DNA of 64,000 bases from Colwellia demingiae (GTDB lineage: Bacteria > Pseudomonadota > Gammaproteobacteria > Enterobacterales > Alteromonadaceae): NCBI RefSeq assembly GCF_007954275.1, contig NZ_VOLT01000009.1, forward strand, positions 1-64,000, in the 5' to 3' direction. Positions 15,645 to 24,277 of this stretch are shown here, piece by piece. Numbering within the stretch: the stretch's first letter is position 1; the number at the start of each line of letters is the position of its first letter. Made by a program: the position numbers and the translations under genes. The notes under the pieces are model-generated. The model was not told where the DNA came from and did no database searches. It saw nothing but the letters and a program-made list of their open reading frames with translations.

Positions 15645-15669
15645 GCTTAAAAGAAAATATAAGAGATAG

Positions 15670-15761
15670 TGGATATCCGACAATAAACCTCGGATATGAC
15701 GCTGGTTTGCAGGGTACTTCTCTTGCAATCGTCATCCTCGAAGTGTCTAATCGGGGATCCA
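15670..15761. repeat. Palindromic intergenic repeat between pfaB and pfaC
   Basis: Two hairpins in tandem: TGGATATCCGA...TCGGATATGACG, then CGTCATCCTCG...CGGGGATCCA. The outer ends are complementary-like (TGGAT / ATCCA). The same arrangement occurs at 21920-22079 and 22417-22594, so it belongs to that repeat family. Transcription must read through it if pfaB and pfaC share a transcript. Confidence 0.75.
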
Positions 15762-15819
15762 TAGCCTAATAAATAGCGTATAAAGCGTTAAAAAAGAATA
15801 TAAACTTTTCGAGGAAAGT

Positions 15820-18800
15820 ATGGAAAATATTGCCGTAGTAGGTATTGCTAATTTATTCCCAGGATCTTCTGCACCAGAAGAATTTTGGCAGCAATTGCTG
15901 AAGAAACAGGATTGTCGCAGTAAAGCAACCAAAGAACAAATGGGTGTTGACCCTGAAAAATACACCGGAAAAAAAGGCGACACAGATAAATTTTACTGTG
16001 TGCACGGTGGTTATATTCGAGATTTCAATTTTGATGCTACCTCATTTATTCAGAACACTGCTGGTTTAACCGCACCGCTGAGTGAAGAGTACCTAAATCA
16101 ACTAGATGATCTAAATAAGTGGGCATTGTATGTTACCCAACAAGCATTAACCGACGCAGGTTATTGGGGCAGTGATAAGCTTGAGCAATGTGGCGTTATT
16201 TTAGGAAACTTATCGTTTCCAACCAAATCGTCTAATCACTTATTTATGCCGTTGTATCACCAAGTTGTCGATAACGCATTAAAAGCCGGTATAGATAAAG
16301 ATTTTCAGTTAAGTCATTTTTCTGATACTGAAATAGCAAGCAACAATATTCATCCAGATAATGCGCTGGTAGCGGGTTATCCTGCGGCGCTTTTAGCGAA
16401 AGCTGCAGGTCTTGGTGGTACACACTTTGCGCTTGACGCAGCCTGTGCATCAAGCTGTTATTCGGTTAAATTGGCTTGTGATTACTTGCATACCGGTAAA
16501 GCTGACATGATGTTAGCAGGCGCAGTGTCTGGCTCTGATCCTATGTTTGTTAATATGGGATTCTCTATTTTTCAAGCCTACCAAGCTAACAATATTCATG
16601 CTCCGTTTGATAAAAACTCTCAGGGCTTATTTGCTGGAGAAGGCGCTGGCATGATGGTCTTAAAACGCCATAGTGATGCGGTACGTGATGGCGATAAAAT
16701 TCACGCCATTATCAAAGGCGGTGCTTTATCAAATGACGGTAAAGGTGAATTTGTCCTTAGTCCAAATACCAAAGGACAAGTGCTGGTTTATGAACGTGCT
16801 TATGAAGATGCGGCAGTTGACCCTCGTGATGTAGATTACATTGAATGTCATGCTACGGGCACACCAAAAGGCGATAACGTAGAGCTTGGCTCTATGGATA
16901 CATTCTTTAGTCGCTTCCCAAGAGAAAACGGCAATAAGCCTTTGCTTGGCTCAGTAAAGTCTAACTTAGGCCACTTACTTACCGCGGCAGGTATGCCGGG
17001 TATGACTAAAGCTATTTGGGCACTCAATGAAGCAAAAATTCCCGCAACCATTAACTTAAACGAGCCATTAAGCTCTAAAAAAGGTTACTTAGGCGGCGCA
17101 CAAATGCCAACAGACACTATCGATTGGCCCGTACCTTTAAAGAAAGCTAACACAGCAAGCAAGCCAAGAACCGCTGGTGTGAGTGTATTTGGTTTTGGTG
17201 GCTCTAATGCCCACTTAGTTTTACAACAGCCTACACAGCAACTTGAACCAATCACGGTAAAAGCCAAAAAACGTGAGCCGCTTGCCATTATTGGTATGGA
17301 TGCTCATTTTGGTGGCGCTGAAGATCTTGCTAGTTTTAAAACGGTTATCGAAACTAACGGTAATACTTTTAGAGAATTACCGACGAATCGTTGGAAAGGC
17401 ATTAATCACGATACTGATGTAATGAATGCCTTGCAGCTTATTAAAGCACCTCAAGGCGGCTATGTTGAAAACTTTGATATTGATTTTTTACGTTTCAAAG
17501 TGCCACCTAACGAGCAAGACTGTTTAATTCCCCAGCAACTGATGATGATGAAAGTTGCTGATAATGCAGCGAAAGATGCAGGACTGAAAGAAGGTAGCAA
17601 CGTTGCGGTACTTGTTGCTATGGGTATTGAACTAGAGCTGCATCAATACCGAGGTCGCGTTAACTTAAGCACACAAATTGAAGAAAGTTTATTACAACAA
17701 GGCGTTACGCTTACGTCTGAGCAACGTGAAACCTTAACCAATATCGCTAAAGATGGCGTTGCTCATGCGGCGCAGCTTAATCAATATACCTCGTTTATTG
17801 GCAATATTATGGCGTCACGTATTTCAGCCTTATGGGACTTTACGGGCCCAGCGATAACGCTTTCTGCGGAAGAAAACTCAGTCTATCGTTGTGTAGAATT
17901 GGCTGAAAACTTATTCCAAACATCAGACATCGATGCCGTGATCATTGCCTCGGTTGATTTAGCTGGTTCAGTAGAAAACATTACCTTAAGACAACACTAT
18001 GGAGCAGTAAATAAGGGCCCAGTCTCAACAAATTCAGCAACCTCAGAAAATGTACTTGACCAAAATACATGGAAAGTAGGTGAAGGGGCAGGTGCATTTG
18101 TAGTTAAACCCCTGTCTAAAGTAATCCAAGTTGCTGAGCAAAGTATTTATGCCACCATAGATGGTGTTAGTTTTGCCAATGGTAAAGATGCTGCTGCCAT
18201 CACTAAAGCTGCAATCGCTTCCCTGAACATTGCAGGGCTTAACAGCGCAGATATTACCAGTGTTGAAGCACATGCCAGTGGTTTTAGTGCTGAGAATACA
18301 GCAGAAGCTCAAGCGCTACCTGCATTGTATGCAGGCAAAGCGATTAGCAGTGTTAAAAGTAATATTGGTCATACGTTTAATGCCAGTGGTGTTGCCAGTA
18401 TTATCAAAACAGCGCTGCTTTTAGATGACCAATCTTCTAAAGCTTCCGATGTTGCGTCTCACATAGCAGTCAATGGCTTAGGTAAAGACGAAAGCTGTGC
18501 GCACCTTATTTTGTCATCGAGCAAGTTAGCCCATCAAGCAGCACCAGCGCCAACAGGCAAGCAACGCCCTAAATTAATAAAAAATATTAGCTTAGGTGGC
18601 AAGGCCATTTTTGCAGACATCATTGCCAACGTTAAAGCACCGGCAATGGCGGCGATTAAACAAGCTTTTACTAAGCAACCATTACGTCAGGTTAAACAGA
18701 CGGTTAATGTCATGAACATTAAACCTAAGCTTTCTGAAGTTAAGGTATCTGAAGCAAAGGCTTCTGAAGTTCAGTTATCCCAAGCCACACAGCAAACTAA

Positions 18801-21800
18801 TTTATCTAGTCAAGCTCATACACGATCAACGGTCGTTACTGGAGTACAAGTGAAGAAAGTTACTAATACCGCTATTGCAAATAAGCAAAGCAAAAGGCAA
18901 GTACCTGCAGGTGTTAAACATCAAGCAAGTAAAGAAATTTTCCAAGAAACAGCCACACATCAAGCTTTTTTAAATACTCGCCAAATGGCAGGTCAGCAGA
19001 TTTCTAAATTGATTGAAATGCAAGCAAACGTTAGTTCACATACCACGGTAGAAAGGTCAGCTTATGTTTCAACATCAACTGCAAGCGCAGCTGAGCCGGT
19101 AAATGAACGTGCTCATGCACCTGAACTTTCGGTTGTCTCTTCAAATGTACAAGCTGCGAATGAAAGCTGGGCAAATGAATCAGGCTTTAAAATCAAAGGC
19201 CCTGCAGGTTATAGCTATCCACCATTACAACTTGAAGAGCGCTTTAATAAGCCTCAAGAAATTATTTGGGACACTGCCGATTTAGTTGAATTTGCTGAAG
19301 GTGATATCGCTAAAGTTTTTGGTGACGAATTCAAAATTATCGACAGCTATTCACGTCGTGTACGTTTACCTACCACAGATTATTTATTGGTATCGCGTGT
19401 TACTGAGCTTGAAGCCACTGTAAATGAATATAAAAAATCATACATGTGCACTGAGTATGATATTCCCGTTGATGCGCCGTTTCTTATCGATGGTCAAATC
19501 CCTTGGTCAGTATCGGTTGAATCAGGCCAATGTGATTTATTATTAATTTCTTATATTGGCATTGATTTTCAAGCCAAAGGTGAACGTGTTTATCGTTTAC
19601 TGGATTGTGAATTAACTTTCTTAGAAGAAATGGCTTTTGGTGGTGAAACACTGCGTTATGAAATCCATATCGACTCATATGCGAGAAACGGCGAGCAATT
19701 GTTATTCTTCTTTCACTACGATTGTTATGTTGGTGATAAAAAAGTACTCATCATGCGTAATGGTTGTGCGGGCTTCTTCACTGATGAAGAGCTTGCTGAT
19801 GGCAAGGGCGTAATCTTAAATGATAAAGATAAAGCTGAATTAGCCAATGCCGTTAAAAGTGATTTTACACCATTAATAACTAATGTTGATAAAGCGAAAC
19901 AAGCCAAGCAGCATTTCGATTACGTTGACATGATGAAATTGGTTGATGGTGATGTCGCGGGTTGTTTTGGTGAAGAATATAACCAACAAGGTCGTAACCC
20001 ATCATTAAAGTTCTCGTCGAAGAAATTCTTAATGATAGAGCGCATTACTAAAATTGATGCAAAAGGCGGCCATTGGGGCTTAGGTTTGCTAGAAGGTCAA
20101 AAAGACTTAGACCCACAGCATTGGTATTTCCCATGTCACTTTAAAGGTGACCAAGTGATGGCCGGCTCATTAATGAGTGAAGGTTGTGGTCAAATGGCGA
20201 TGTTCTTAATGCTTAAATTAGGCATGCATGCGAATGTAAATAACGCACGTTTCCAGCCTATGCCAGGTGAGTCGCAAACCGTACGTTGTCGTGGCCAAGT
20301 ATTGCCACAACACAATACGTTAACGTATCGTATGGAAGTAACCGCAATGGGCATGCAGCCTTACCCATTCTTAAAAGCGAATATCGAAATTATTCTTGAT
20401 GGTAAAGCGGTTGTTGATTTTAAAAACTTATCAGTGATGATCACTGAACAAGATGATAACTCACCCTATCCGGTAACTTTACCTGACAATGTTAAGCTTA
20501 AATCTCGTAACATGAAGTCAGTAACAACAAGTGCTGCAGTACACAGTGTTGATGCTAACCTTGAACTGGATGAACGTGGCGTAGCGCCATTTAAACATCC
20601 TGAACGTGCTTTAATGAAAGTTGTGTCTGATTTATCTGCGCCAAAAGAGAAAGGCGTAACACCTATTCAGCATTTTGAAGCGCCAATGGTAGCGGGACAA
20701 AATCGTGTGCCTAACCAAGCACCATTTACCCCATGGCACATGTTTGAATTTGCTACGGGTAATATTTCTAAATGTTTTGGTCCTGATTTTGACGTGTACA
20801 AAGGACGTATTCCACCGCGCACGCCATGTGGTGATTTACAAGTAGTGACACAAGTTGTCGAAGTGCAAGGTGAGCGTTTAGATCTTAAAAAGACTTCTAG
20901 CTGCATCGCAGAATACTATGTGCCAAGTGATGCATGGTACTTCACAAAAAATAGTGTGAATAACTGGATGCCTTATTCACTCATCATGGAAATTGCCTTA
21001 CAACCTAATGGCTTTATTTCGGGTTATATGGGCACCACGCTTAAATACCCAGAAAAAGATCTGTTCTTCCGCAACCTTGATGGCAGCGGTGACTTAATTA
21101 AACAGGTAGATTTACGTGATAAAACTATTGTTAATAAGTCGGTATTATTAAGCACTACTATGGCTGGCGGTATGATAGTACAAAGCTTCACTTTTGAGCT
21201 GTATGTTAAAAATGAAAGTGCTGCTGCTCAGTCATTAGAAAGTCATGACTTGTTCTACAAAGGTACGGCCGTTTTTGGTTACTTTGGTGCAGATGCGTTA
21301 ACTAACCAATTAGGTATCGATAACGGTAAAGTAACTCACCCTTGGTTTGTTGATAACAATACACCTAAATCAGATATTAAGGTGATTGATCTTAGTAATT
21401 CAAATCTACCTCTATACCAAGCGCCATTGAACAAACCGCATTATAAATTAGCGGGTGGTCAAATGAACTTTATTGATACCGTTTCAATCGTTGAAGGCGG
21501 CGGTAAAGCGAGTGTTGCGTATGTTTATGGTGAAAGAACTATTGATGCAACCGATTGGTTCTTCCGTTATCACTTCCATCAAGATCCAGTAATGCCAGGC
21601 TCATTGGGTGTTGAAGCGGTTATCGAATTAATGCAAACCTATGCACTAGAAAATGATTTAGGTAAGCAATTTACTAACCCAAGATTTATCGCACCAGCAA
21701 CTTTGGTTAAATGGAAATATCGTGGTCAAATTACGCCGTTAAACAAACAAATGTCATTAGATGTGCATATTACGGATATCGTCAAAACCGCCGGAGCTGA

Positions 21801-21903
21801 CGGGAAAGGTGAAGTACGTTTGATTGGCGATGCGAACTTGTCTAAAGATGGCCTAAGAATATACGAAGTAAAAGATATTGTATTGTCTATCGTAGAAGCG
21901 TAG
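15820..21903 (+). CDS. pfaC: PUFA synthase subunit PfaC (KS-CLF-DH-DH)
   Basis: PfaC (2027 residues) extends the chain and sets double bonds by dehydration/isomerisation. Domain 1 is a ketosynthase with Cys209 (DAACASSCYS), His344 (ECHATGTP) and His385. Domain 2 (from about 485) is a chain-length-factor-like ketosynthase: the expected active cysteine region reads TLSAEENSVYR, so the cysteine is absent. A Gln/Ser/Ala-rich linker (about 950-1110) leads to two FabA-like hot-dog dehydratases with His1440 (CHFKGDQVMAGSL) and His1918 (HFHQDPVMPGSL). GAGGAAAG precedes the ATG. Length and order match known PfaC proteins. The first dehydratase has Ala where the second has the usual Pro (VMAG vs VMPG). 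Confidence 0.95.
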   Translation: MENIAVVGIANLFPGSSAPEEFWQQLLKKQDCRSKATKEQMGVDPEKYTGKKGDTDKFYCVHGGYIRDFNFDATSFIQNTAGLTAPLSEEYLNQLDDLNKWALYVTQQALTDAGYWGSDKLEQCGVILGNLSFPTKSSNHLFMPLYHQVVDNALKAGIDKDFQLSHFSDTEIASNNIHPDNALVAGYPAALLAKAAGLGGTHFALDAACASSCYSVKLACDYLHTGKADMMLAGAVSGSDPMFVNMGFSIFQAYQANNIHAPFDKNSQGLFAGEGAGMMVLKRHSDAVRDGDKIHAIIKGGALSNDGKGEFVLSPNTKGQVLVYERAYEDAAVDPRDVDYIECHATGTPKGDNVELGSMDTFFSRFPRENGNKPLLGSVKSNLGHLLTAAGMPGMTKAIWALNEAKIPATINLNEPLSSKKGYLGGAQMPTDTIDWPVPLKKANTASKPRTAGVSVFGFGGSNAHLVLQQPTQQLEPITVKAKKREPLAIIGMDAHFGGAEDLASFKTVIETNGNTFRELPTNRWKGINHDTDVMNALQLIKAPQGGYVENFDIDFLRFKVPPNEQDCLIPQQLMMMKVADNAAKDAGLKEGSNVAVLVAMGIELELHQYRGRVNLSTQIEESLLQQGVTLTSEQRETLTNIAKDGVAHAAQLNQYTSFIGNIMASRISALWDFTGPAITLSAEENSVYRCVELAENLFQTSDIDAVIIASVDLAGSVENITLRQHYGAVNKGPVSTNSATSENVLDQNTWKVGEGAGAFVVKPLSKVIQVAEQSIYATIDGVSFANGKDAAAITKAAIASLNIAGLNSADITSVEAHASGFSAENTAEAQALPALYAGKAISSVKSNIGHTFNASGVASIIKTALLLDDQSSKASDVASHIAVNGLGKDESCAHLILSSSKLAHQAAPAPTGKQRPKLIKNISLGGKAIFADIIANVKAPAMAAIKQAFTKQPLRQVKQTVNVMNIKPKLSEVKVSEAKASEVQLSQATQQTNLSSQAHTRSTVVTGVQVKKVTNTAIANKQSKRQVPAGVKHQASKEIFQETATHQAFLNTRQMAGQQISKLIEMQANVSSHTTVERSAYVSTSTASAAEPVNERAHAPELSVVSSNVQAANESWANESGFKIKGPAGYSYPPLQLEERFNKPQEIIWDTADLVEFAEGDIAKVFGDEFKIIDSYSRRVRLPTTDYLLVSRVTELEATVNEYKKSYMCTEYDIPVDAPFLIDGQIPWSVSVESGQCDLLLISYIGIDFQAKGERVYRLLDCELTFLEEMAFGGETLRYEIHIDSYARNGEQLLFFFHYDCYVGDKKVLIMRNGCAGFFTDEELADGKGVILNDKDKAELANAVKSDFTPLITNVDKAKQAKQHFDYVDMMKLVDGDVAGCFGEEYNQQGRNPSLKFSSKKFLMIERITKIDAKGGHWGLGLLEGQKDLDPQHWYFPCHFKGDQVMAGSLMSEGCGQMAMFLMLKLGMHANVNNARFQPMPGESQTVRCRGQVLPQHNTLTYRMEVTAMGMQPYPFLKANIEIILDGKAVVDFKNLSVMITEQDDNSPYPVTLPDNVKLKSRNMKSVTTSAAVHSVDANLELDERGVAPFKHPERALMKVVSDLSAPKEKGVTPIQHFEAPMVAGQNRVPNQAPFTPWHMFEFATGNISKCFGPDFDVYKGRIPPRTPCGDLQVVTQVVEVQGERLDLKKTSSCIAEYYVPSDAWYFTKNSVNNWMPYSLIMEIALQPNGFISGYMGTTLKYPEKDLFFRNLDGSGDLIKQVDLRDKTIVNKSVLLSTTMAGGMIVQSFTFELYVKNESAAAQSLESHDLFYKGTAVFGYFGADALTNQLGIDNGKVTHPWFVDNNTPKSDIKVIDLSNSNLPLYQAPLNKPHYKLAGGQMNFIDTVSIVEGGGKASVAYVYGERTIDATDWFFRYHFHQDPVMPGSLGVEAVIELMQTYALENDLGKQFTNPRFIAPATLVKWKYRGQITPLNKQMSLDVHITDIVKTAGADGKGEVRLIGDANLSKDGLRIYEVKDIVLSIVEA

Positions 21904-21919
21904 TGATTAAATATAAAAC

Positions 21920-22079
21920 TGGATACAGGACAATATGCTCCATGCATTGTCTATTAAGTGGCATCCGTGCCACGTCCGACAAGTGATTTCGGGTATGACG
22001 TAAATAGGTAGATAGTTTACTTAATAGTGAGACATTAGCCTCTCAACCGTCATTCCCGTATTGTCTTGGCGGGAATCCA
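21920..22079. repeat. Palindromic repeat, left copy beside GIY-YIG gene
   Basis: Starts TGGATACAGGACAATATGCT, includes TTCGGGTATGACG, and ends with a hairpin TCATTCCCG...CGGGAATCCA. The first 60 bases and the last 45 are nearly identical to 22417-22594 in the same orientation. Both copies lie outside coding sequence in the pfaC-pfaD gap. Confidence 0.88.
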
Positions 22080-22120
22080 CTGTCACTAATGCGCAATAAT
22101 CAGTTATCAAGGAAGATAAT

Positions 22121-22408
22121 ATGAAACAACCCTGTGTGTATATCTTAGCAAGTGAAAAGAATGGCACTTTATATGTTGGAGTAACTAGTAATTTAGTAAA
22201 ACGTATTTGGCAGCATAAGAATCATGTTGTAAGTGGCTTTAGCGAGAAACACGAAGTAAAGCGACTAGTATATTTTGAGCAACTTGATGATATGGTCAAT
22301 GCAATTACCCGTGAAAAAGTATTAAAAAAATGGAATCGGGCTTGGAAGATTAGATTAATAGAAAAGACAAATCTCAATTGGAATGATCTGTACGATGATA
22401 TTGTATAG
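22121..22408 (+). CDS. Small GIY-YIG nuclease-domain protein
   Basis: The 95-residue protein is a stand-alone GIY-YIG domain: VYILASEKNGTLYVGVTSNL supplies the paired tyrosines and LVKRIWQHK the conserved Arg and His, while REKVLKKWNRAWKIRLIE includes the catalytic-type Glu region and basic helix. Known family: YhbQ/UPF0213-like single-domain GIY-YIG proteins. AAGGAAG precedes the ATG well. It has no obvious role in fatty acid synthesis and lies between two direct repeat copies inside the pfa operon. Members of this family are, to my recollection, often found next to such repeats in marine gammaproteobacteria, suggesting that nuclease and repeat move together (inference). Confidence 0.88.
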   Translation: MKQPCVYILASEKNGTLYVGVTSNLVKRIWQHKNHVVSGFSEKHEVKRLVYFEQLDDMVNAITREKVLKKWNRAWKIRLIEKTNLNWNDLYDDIV

Positions 22409-22416
22409 CTAGAAAA

Positions 22417-22594
22417 TGTATACAGGACAATATGCTCCATGCATTGTCTATTAAGTGGCATCCGTGCCATGTCCGACAAGAGACTTCGGGTATGACGATA
22501 AACGTGAGATTTAGATCATAGGAAGCGGTGTACTGAAAAGGTTAATAATCAAGCCTCTCAACCGTCATTCCCGCGTTGTCTTGGCGGGAATCCA
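22417..22594. repeat. Palindromic repeat, right copy beside GIY-YIG gene
   Basis: Direct copy of 21920-22079: TACAGGACAATATGCTCCAT and following bases match at nearly every position, as do AGCCTCTCAACCGTCATTCC and the closing hairpin. An extra half element, TGGATACCCGA...TCGGGTATGACAG, follows at 22620-22650 just before pfaD. Confidence 0.88.
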
Positions 22595-22619
22595 TCGGTT
22601 TGATATACATGAATAACAA

Positions 22620-22650
22620 TGGATACCCGACTAGCAACTTCGGGTATGAC
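22620..22650. repeat. Half-element hairpin just upstream of pfaD
   Basis: TGGATACCCGA and TTCGGGTATGA form a stem of about 10 bp. It is 28 bases before the pfaD ATG, and its outer arms can also pair with the hairpin ending at 22594. It may affect pfaD mRNA structure. Confidence 0.7.
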
Positions 22651-22678
22651 AGTAATAATAAAAGAATTAGGAAAGAAT

Positions 22679-24277
22679 ATGTCAAACATCGATTTTAATA
22701 ATGCCAGAGCTATTGATTGGGCTTGGAAAGTTAACGCGAACGACGTTAACAGTAACGACGTGCAAATAAAGTCAGCGTTAATGGATTTAGCAAAGCCGGT
22801 TTATGTCGCAAAATCTGCTAATGGTTTTGGAGTGGTAAACACTACCGCAGCTACGGGTGATACTGATGTAGTCGCTTTTGCTCAAAAACTTACTCCGCAA
22901 GATTTAGGTGATGATGCTTTTAAAAAGCAGCATGGCGTTAAATACGCATACCATGGCGGCGCTATGGCGAATGGCATCGCCTCCGTTGAATTAGTCGTTG
23001 CTTTAGGTAAAGCTGGATTTTTATGTTCATTCGGCGCAGCAGGTTTAGTACCTGATGCGGTGGAAGATGCGATTAAACGTATTCAAGCAGAATTACCAAA
23101 CGGACCTTATGCGGTGAACTTGATTCATGCACCTGCAGAAGAAGCATTAGAGCGTGGCGCCGTTGAACGATTTTTAAAACTTGGCGTTAAAACCGTTGAA
23201 GCTTCAGCTTACTTAGGGTTAACCGAGCATATTGTTTGGTATCGTTTAGCGGGTTTAAGTGAAAATAGCGATGGTAGCGTTAATATTGGTAACAAGGTAA
23301 TTGCTAAAGTATCTCGTACGGAAGTAGGGCGACGCTTTATGGAGCCTGCGCCGCAAAAGCTAGTTGATAAACTGCTTAGCCAAGGCAAGATAACCCAAGA
23401 ACAAGCAGAGCTGTCAAAACGCGTGCCTATGGCTGATGACATTACCGCAGAAGCGGATTCAGGCGGTCATACTGATAATCGACCTTTCTTAACCTTATTG
23501 CCGACTATCATAGCGCTTCGTGATGAAGTTCAAGCACAATATAATTTCTCTCCAGCATTACGCGTTGGTGCTGGCGGTGGAATTGGTACCCCAGAATCAG
23601 CGTTAGCTGCATTTAATATGGGCTCAGCTTATATTGTACTTGGCTCAGTAAACCAAGCCTGTGTAGAGGCGGGTGCTTCAGAACATACTCGCAAGTTATT
23701 AGCGGGCGTAGAAATGGCTGATGTGACTATGGCTCCTGCAGCAGATATGTTTGAAATGGGCGTAAAGTTGCAAGTAGTTAAGCGTGGTTCAATGTTCGCC
23801 ATGCGAGCGAAGAAGCTTTACGAGCTATACATTAACTATGACTCAATTGAAGCTATTCCGGCTGATGAACGTCTTAAGATTGAAAAACAAATATTTCGCT
23901 CTAATCTTGATGATGTTTGGGCAGGTACTGAAGCCTTTTTCACTGAACGTGATCCTGAAATGTTAGCGCGAGCACAATCTAGCCCTAAACGTAAAATGGC
24001 GCTAATTTTCCGTTGGTATTTAGGATTAAGCTCTCGCTGGTCAAATACTGGCGAAAAAGGCCGAGAAATGGATTACCAAATTTGGGCAGGTCCAAGTTTA
24101 GGCGCCTTTAATAGCTGGGTAAAAGGTACGTATTTAGAAGACTATACTCGCCGTTATGCAGTAGATGTAGCCTTGCATATGTTAAAAGGTGCTGCCTACT
24201 TACAACGAGTTAATCAGCTCAAACTACAAGGTGTTAGCTTAAGCACTGAGCTGGCTGGCTATCGTAGCGAAGATTAG
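22679..24277 (+). CDS. pfaD: PUFA synthase enoyl reductase PfaD
   Basis: PfaD is the FMN-dependent trans-acting enoyl reductase of the PUFA synthase, related to 2-nitropropane dioxygenase/nitronate monooxygenase and FabK. The 532-residue sequence shows the TIM-barrel flavin features: YHGGAMANGIAS near 95-105, LIHAPAEEA, ADSGGHTDNRP near 260 and VGAGGGIGTPESALAAF near 300. I chose ATG 22679 (MSNIDFNN) with AGGAAAG upstream; a further 20 open codons upstream lie in the repeat hairpin and are not credible. The 775-base gap after pfaC is unusually long for this operon because of the inserted GIY-YIG/repeat unit. Confident. Confidence 0.95.
   Translation: MSNIDFNNARAIDWAWKVNANDVNSNDVQIKSALMDLAKPVYVAKSANGFGVVNTTAATGDTDVVAFAQKLTPQDLGDDAFKKQHGVKYAYHGGAMANGIASVELVVALGKAGFLCSFGAAGLVPDAVEDAIKRIQAELPNGPYAVNLIHAPAEEALERGAVERFLKLGVKTVEASAYLGLTEHIVWYRLAGLSENSDGSVNIGNKVIAKVSRTEVGRRFMEPAPQKLVDKLLSQGKITQEQAELSKRVPMADDITAEADSGGHTDNRPFLTLLPTIIALRDEVQAQYNFSPALRVGAGGGIGTPESALAAFNMGSAYIVLGSVNQACVEAGASEHTRKLLAGVEMADVTMAPAADMFEMGVKLQVVKRGSMFAMRAKKLYELYINYDSIEAIPADERLKIEKQIFRSNLDDVWAGTEAFFTERDPEMLARAQSSPKRKMALIFRWYLGLSSRWSNTGEKGREMDYQIWAGPSLGAFNSWVKGTYLEDYTRRYAVDVALHMLKGAAYLQRVNQLKLQGVSLSTELAGYRSED

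Follow-up and report, generated by a model that had tools for sequence, protein, structure and literature searches.

What joins a small stand-alone nuclease gene to the palindromic repeats that bracket it in the gap between pfaC and pfaD of Colwellia demingiae? The initial annotation of the window, by which we mean the whole stretch of 64,000 nucleotides analysed here (contig NZ_VOLT01000009.1), had placed a GIY-YIG gene between two direct copies of a 160-180 bp palindromic repeat, plus a half copy, and had likened the layout to REP/RAYT systems, in which nuclease and repeats travel together, with a GIY-YIG enzyme in place of the Y1 transposase.

Build and history of the pfaC-pfaD unit

The open reading frame in the gap (Table 1) contains a single Pfam domain, GIY-YIG (E 5.9e-15), and comparison of the flanking repeats confirms that the gene is bracketed by direct copies; the genome of the window holds one close copy of it. 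In a comparison of 117 proteins, residues Y7, Y18, G20, R28, H32, E65 and N84 are retained in at least 97%, and among 57 they do not vary; we take them to be the usual catalytic positions of the GIY-YIG fold. A dN/dS ratio could be computed for 10 of 21 genus pairs and lay between 0.05 and 0.14, with dS exceeding 1 in 9 of the 10. Taken together, the conserved residues and low ratios indicate that the gene is maintained as an active-looking nuclease. The predicted structure (pLDDT 93.4) came nearest to the solved folds of UPF0213 proteins (1zg2, 1ywl), Slx1 and the N-terminal domain of UvrC, all as weak matches (best E 2.3e-3), and none of these three showed a sequence-level match at E 1e-3 or better. 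A phmmer search of PDB sequences returned three matches, the best being a WD-40 chain (5.6e-4), and nothing useful; the phage collection gave no match at E 1e-10.

Table 1. Features of the pfaC-pfaD region in the window
Feature	Position	Strand	Basis or remark
Further REP dimer (- then +), directly upstream of pfaC	15669..15762		REP pattern
pfaC, upstream neighbour	15820..21903	+	Name from the initial annotation; neighbour also conserved in relatives
Repeat unit copy 1 (REP dimer)	21920..22079	+	Repeat comparison; ssDNA folding
REP type B, copy 1	21920..22000	-	~50-nt double hairpin inside (about 21927-21975); boundaries by eye
REP type A, copy 1	22048..22079	+	CGTC tag, 8-bp stem with one mismatch, 9-nt loop, CCA tail
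GIY-YIG nuclease gene	22121..22408	+	95 aa; Pfam match, residue conservation, model pLDDT 93.4
Repeat unit copy 2 (REP dimer)	22417..22594	+	Repeat comparison
REP type B, copy 2	22417..22497	-	Same ~50-nt insert as copy 1; boundaries by eye
REP type A, copy 2	22563..22594	+	Perfect 8-bp stem
Single uninterrupted REP type B, TGTC tag	22619..22651	-	Complete hairpin; the "half copy" of the initial annotation
pfaD, downstream neighbour	22679..24277	+	Name from the initial annotation

The repeat of 160-180 bp does exist as two direct copies, which match in a block of 98 nt (89% identity) and another of 43 nt (95%). Rather than one long palindrome, each copy proved to be a REP dimer with a double-hairpin insert of about 50 nt in one of its arms. 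Likewise, the supposed half copy is an extra repeat and forms one complete REP hairpin, half of a REP dimer. Type A reads CGTC-ATTCCCGC-loop-GCGGGAAT-CCA in copy 2, from which copy 1 differs by one mismatch, and type B, as seen in the final hairpin, reads TGTC-ATACCCGA-loop-TCGGGTAT-CCA; the two types are placed head to head, and the pfa genes around them are co-directional. As single-stranded DNA, positions 21920-22080 (z -4.27; 0 of 200 shuffles equally stable) and 22561-22653 (z -4.27; 1 of 200) fold more stably than shuffled sequences. The REP pattern has 7 matches in the own genome and its reversed form has none, and strict REPs number 11 in this genome and up to 49 in relatives.

The double hairpin (AGGACAATATGCTCC..GCATTGTCTAATAAG..CATCCATG..), at about 21927-21975 and 22424-22472 inside the type B REPs, also occurs alone elsewhere in the same genome (L013-L017, L020), and the variation in its second stem is mostly compensated, as judged by eye. 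The second copy in relative G022 has a type B REP without this insert, and a search of Rfam with positions 21800-22800, double hairpin included, gave no useful match at E 1.

CGTC REPs are defined, in the accessible part of Di Nocera et al. (2013; PMC3733652), by a CGTC tag, a stem of 8-9 bp and a CCA tail, and lie mostly in head-to-head dimers; Neisseria dRS3 is counted among them. The window REPs share the CGTC tag, with TGTC as a variant, an 8-bp stem starting with AT, the CCA tail and the head-to-head dimers, and so agree with the tag, stem and tail rule of the CGTC REP super-family (CGTC or TGTC/CCTC; 8-9 bp stem starting AT; CCA). They differ in the loop, which has 9 nt in the window's type A whereas four families listed in that part of the survey have 4-5 nt, other loop lengths being noted there in some species. 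A second difference is that a dedicated transposase was apparently absent for CGTC REPs as far as the same part goes (PMC3733652), whereas a GIY-YIG gene is attached here. Judged by their sequence, the window repeats appear CGTC-like, and CGTC REP serves as their working name.

The history of the gap was followed in the 24 of 39 genus genomes with pfaD. Gene and REPs together occupy it in 8 of the 24 (G000, G003, G009, G017, G022, G027, G038 and, over a contig break, G033), the gene copy of G022 being decayed; REPs stand without the gene in three (G007, G018, G019), and neither is present in 13. Empty sites were therefore found, as the initial annotation had asked, and repeats accompany the gene in all 8 relatives that have it there. 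The REP-only site of G018 holds exactly one repeat unit, whose left part resembles copy 1 and whose last REP resembles copy 2, with few bases to distinguish them, as would be expected if the gene had been lost by recombination between direct repeats. Two of the 13 gene-free gaps (L127, L137; genomes G005, G024) contain another gene of about 410 aa, so that the pfaC-pfaD gap takes different inserts. Another repeat-like stretch (CTCATTGCCATTTGGCAC.. / CTCATTGTCATTAGGCAA..) recurs in several gaps that lack REPs, namely those of G010, G012, G016, G023, G029, G034 and G036.

A second common site, in G001 and G038, lies beside a polysaccharide-deacetylase-like gene (named by eye), and the G001 copy there has a stop. 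In the gene tree G017, G038 and G022, which all carry a CCTCGAG-type REP, form a group (0.92), and in the pfaD tree, whose branches are partly weak, G017 falls with G000 and G018 (0.97) and G022 beside G010 (0.86). Synonymous divergence of the gene exceeds that of its neighbours between G000 and G009 (0.82 versus 0.41 and 0.40) and between G000 and G017, and is 0.46 between G017 and G038, where the neighbours have 0.45 and 0.59. Since the excess appears in some pairs only, the gene-REP cassette may possibly have been exchanged in some lineages. The idea that nuclease and repeats travel together gained no support: orthologous sites are common to several species, with loss and decay, and no recent transposition was seen. 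The pfaC-pfaD unit is probably a resident and no recently jumped element.

Association of the nuclease gene with CGTC REPs

The pairing recurs far beyond this gap. A first set of 88 loci comprised the window, the best 80 of 153 confirmed relatives and 7 further genus copies (of the 12 matches in the genus search, one was the window itself and another 4 were already among the best 80). A structural REP motif lies at most 500 bp from the gene at 77 of the 88 loci and on both sides at 55. Close to the gene there are 1.96 REPs per kb, versus 0.124 per kb in the remainder of these loci, a 16-fold enrichment. The loci span Gamma-, Beta- and Alphaproteobacteria, Desulfobacterales, Chloroflexota, Nitrospinota, a cyanobacterium, a Bacteroidota MAG and Gemmatimonadetes, a span to be read with possible contig misplacement in mind, many of the genomes being MAGs. 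The class search yielded 102 matches, 30 of them with loci (29 new), and this independent set of 29 repeated the result, with a REP near the gene at 25 loci, on both sides at 21, and 1.98 versus 0.040 REPs per kb. Of the combined 117 loci, 102 have a CGTC REP no more than 500 bp away from the gene.

Another GIY-YIG paralogue served as a control. It is 30% identical to the window protein, and is present in 39 of 39 genus genomes. The name UPF0213/YhbQ-like, first used for it, is borne out neither by Pfam, where it matches GIY-YIG alone, nor by NCBIfam, where it matches nothing. No REP was found near it at any of 30 loci (from 40 matches). For the other 72 matches of the class search, 60 stretches, mostly more divergent, were fetched, representing 58 distinct genes (two genes occurring twice), and strict REPs lie near 20 of the 58 (21 of 60 stretches), on both sides in 11. 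Set against 102 of 117 among the nearer relatives, this means that the association is at its strongest close to the window protein and fades with divergence. A motif-free test, which asked for a repeat of at least 12 nt common to both flanks, was positive at 99 of 113 of the combined 117 loci (4 with short flanks left out) and at 32 of 58 among the more divergent stretches (31 of 56 without doubles), against 1 to 3 of 600 mononucleotide shuffles per test. The core of the initial proposal, a REP/RAYT-like pairing with a GIY-YIG enzyme, is thus upheld, and the association of this subfamily with the repeat does extend to other genomes.

Among the records examined in a plasmid collection, 3 of 5 (L257-L259) have strict REPs within 500 bp, and two, from Rhizobium (L260) and Sinorhizobium (L261), have no strict REP within that distance. 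In Azospirillum lipoferum (L259, 1374-1880) the same gene splits sufB and sufC and, like the window gene, has a REP dimer on either side. At 698-1312 of L218, from class genome G237, the open frame continues through four REPs and gains a C-terminal extension.

The REPs around the gene are also oriented non-randomly. Over the 117 loci, the nearest upstream REP is on the + strand in 71 of 88 cases and the nearest downstream REP on the - strand in 61 of 89. Where REPs flank both sides (75 loci), the order is + then - in 50. In 21 of the 71 cases with an upstream + REP, only 12-15 nt separate the end of that REP from the start codon. The nearest strict REPs of the window itself are + and +, and it follows the common order only if the interrupted type B REP is counted.

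REP abundance follows gene presence at the level of whole genomes. Of 369 genomes in a class sample, 74 contain the gene (E 1e-12). Five or more generic CGTC REPs occur in 31 of these 74 versus 26 of the 295 without it (odds ratio 7.5, p 2e-10). Within the genus, the 10 of 39 genomes with the gene (E 1e-8) contain 3-49 REPs, and 14 of the 29 without it have none, with a maximum of 32. The abundance p-values overstate certainty because class and genus counts include the REPs beside the gene itself, the generic CGTC pattern misses Colwellia-type loops, and the genomes are not independent. REP-rich genomes without a detected gene, 26 of 295 in the class and genus members such as G005 with its 32 REPs, are counter-evidence.

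Co-variation of protein and stem

The protein and the repeat also vary together. Distances between proteins correlate with distances between stems (Mantel r 0.31, p 0.0005; r 0.27 with GC held), and mapped on the protein tree the full stem needs 48 changes versus a shuffle mean of 63.75, and its sixth base 15 versus 30.7, no value as low being reached in 300 shuffles in either case. Stem base 3 gave no sign of a relation to the protein tree: 38 of 300 shuffles needed as few changes.

The sixth stem base is tracked by residue 70, a lysine in the window protein, which lies in the predicted model at the end of the helix holding E65. Of the 92 loci compared, 51 have K at this position, 38 of them with C as the stem base; of the 41 with E, N, G or S, 37 have G. 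When the rule fixed beforehand was applied to held-out loci, a small sample, a predicted G was G in 6 of 6, and a predicted C was C in 3, G in 2 and A in 1; 8 further stretches (7 genes) had residues outside the rule, mostly with A as the stem base. Pooled over 103 loci, the counts for K/R at residue 70 with stem base C were 43/4/10/46. Among the 26 closest disjoint C/G pairs, K/R stood with C in 21, with G in none, and did not differ in 5, and other sizes gave 12/0/3 (15 pairs) and 30/0/10 (40 pairs), although these pairs reuse the discovery loci and are near neighbours rather than proven independent events; a test of independent pairs on supported branches had only 2 usable pairs. Residues 51, 67 and 72 likewise differ between the C and G classes.

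Candidate role of the nuclease and its alternatives

Across many phyla, then, the GIY-YIG nuclease and CGTC REPs are associated, with a preferred inverted order and with protein-repeat co-variation. Such a recurring pairing of enzyme and repeat suggests that the enzyme recognises the repeats. The unit resembles the REPtrons of RAYTs, whose flanking inverted REPs, co-evolution and correlated abundance, as presented in the accessible part of Nunvar et al. (2010; PMC2817692), have counterparts here in the inverted flanking REPs (50 of 75 loci), the REP abundance with gene presence and the co-evolution. Divergence above that of the neighbours at an orthologous site, given for RAYTs in the same part (PMC2817692), is seen here in some pairs. 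The REPtron joins a Y1 HUH transposase to GTAG REPs (PMC2817692), whereas here a GIY-YIG nuclease is joined to CGTC REPs. RAYT identity was rejected: the Pfam match is to GIY-YIG only and, with HUH enzyme and GTAG tag absent, the window unit is not a RAYT. A free-standing homing endonuclease was also rejected, the protein having 95 aa and a single Pfam domain; a PHROG homing-endonuclease match is weak and covers residues 1-39 only.

A 2025 paper in Nature Communications reportedly introduces the Ssn nucleases, GIY-YIG enzymes that act specifically on single-stranded DNA, together with a Neisseria repeat named NTS, and its abstract is said to report that the Neisseria enzyme and repeat modulate natural transformation. 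Like the Ssn nucleases as reported, the window protein has a GIY-YIG domain with the catalytic residues, and it probably belongs to this family of single-strand nucleases. The initial annotation had suggested that the repeat-nuclease unit could be poorly described. The enzyme family is partly known through the reported Ssn work of 2025, and the CGTC REPs were described in 2013; a literature search of limited coverage found no paper joining a GIY-YIG enzyme to REPs. Two papers in which the relevant terms occur together proved unrelated, the words coming from an author's name and from mitochondrial introns. A gonococcal homologue, 58% identical to the window protein, sits within a dRS3 cluster, and we infer that it is the published Ssn. 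Its locus, in a record labelled plasmid and 2.17 Mb long, contains 16 matches in 3.3 kb to the dRS3 consensus published in PMC5525351, as given in the accessible part of that paper.

We consider it likely that the product of this gene is a nuclease dedicated to a family of CGTC-type REPs, the two forming a RAYT/REPtron-like system with a GIY-YIG hydrolytic nuclease. Such an enzyme could bind the REP hairpin in single-stranded DNA, as in lagging-strand, repair or uptake intermediates, read the stem partly through residue 70, and nick close to the CGTC tag, which is unpaired. Copying, deletion or rearrangement of REPs by the repair or recombination systems of the host could follow, and might yield REP dimers, local arrays and gene loss. 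Cleavage of single-stranded REPs, its position, the spreading of REPs and a benefit to the host would all belong to this predicted role.

An enzyme of DNA uptake or defence, cutting incoming single strands, for which the REPs would be targets that mark the chromosome or limit recombination and which would take no part in REP spread, seems unlikely to us, even though the reported modulation of natural transformation by Ssn and its repeat, as well as the gonococcal homologue amid its 16 consensus matches, would suit it. So would the use of dRS3 as insertion sites by filamentous phages, given in the accessible part of PMC10745880. This explanation leaves aside the inverted REPs at the gene, with 21 of the 71 upstream + cases ending 12-15 nt before the start codon, and uptake control alone would not predict a REP copy number that follows the gene in a REPtron-like pattern.

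The same short distance to the start codon at 21 of 71 loci, and the location of the window REPs between co-directional pfa genes, could instead reflect RNA hairpins that control the nuclease gene or stabilise the operon mRNA and are no DNA substrates; we find this quite improbable, as REPs far from the gene, inverted REPs downstream of it and a residue that tracks a stem base would be left unexplained. Equally improbable, in our view, is an ordinary active transposon, in which REPs would be the terminal repeats and the GIY-YIG protein would act as the transposase: the inverted flanking REPs of 50 of the 75 two-sided loci and the occupied, REP-only and gene-free sites among relatives resemble one, but the own genome has one close copy, 54 of the 74 class genomes with any match have a single one (maximum 5), the orthologous sites are shared between species and show decay, and the phage collection gave nothing at the threshold used. 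Sheer coincidence, with REPs gathering in intergenic gaps and the gene falling by chance into REP-rich places, would fit the REPs that occur without the gene and is rejected by the control paralogue (0 of 30) and the REP orientation, the 16-fold local enrichment and the residue co-variation arguing against it as well, so that we give it next to no credence.

Returning to the dedicated REP nuclease, the survey of 2013 left the enzyme of CGTC REPs, if any, open, and the present data name a candidate for what is, with Neisseria dRS3 included, a widespread repeat class (PMC3733652). The prediction is specific to one residue, 70, and one stem base. More tentatively, and with chances that we put somewhat short of even, CGTC REPs including Neisseria dRS3 might be made and maintained by their own GIY-YIG nucleases, as a second REP-nuclease system, independent of RAYTs and found across many phyla, in which residue 70 would be the centre of a readable specificity code between protein and stem. 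If this is true, two unrelated nuclease folds would each have entered into partnership with REP hairpins, and one enzyme of 95 residues could open a way to study how repeats drive genome change in many bacteria.
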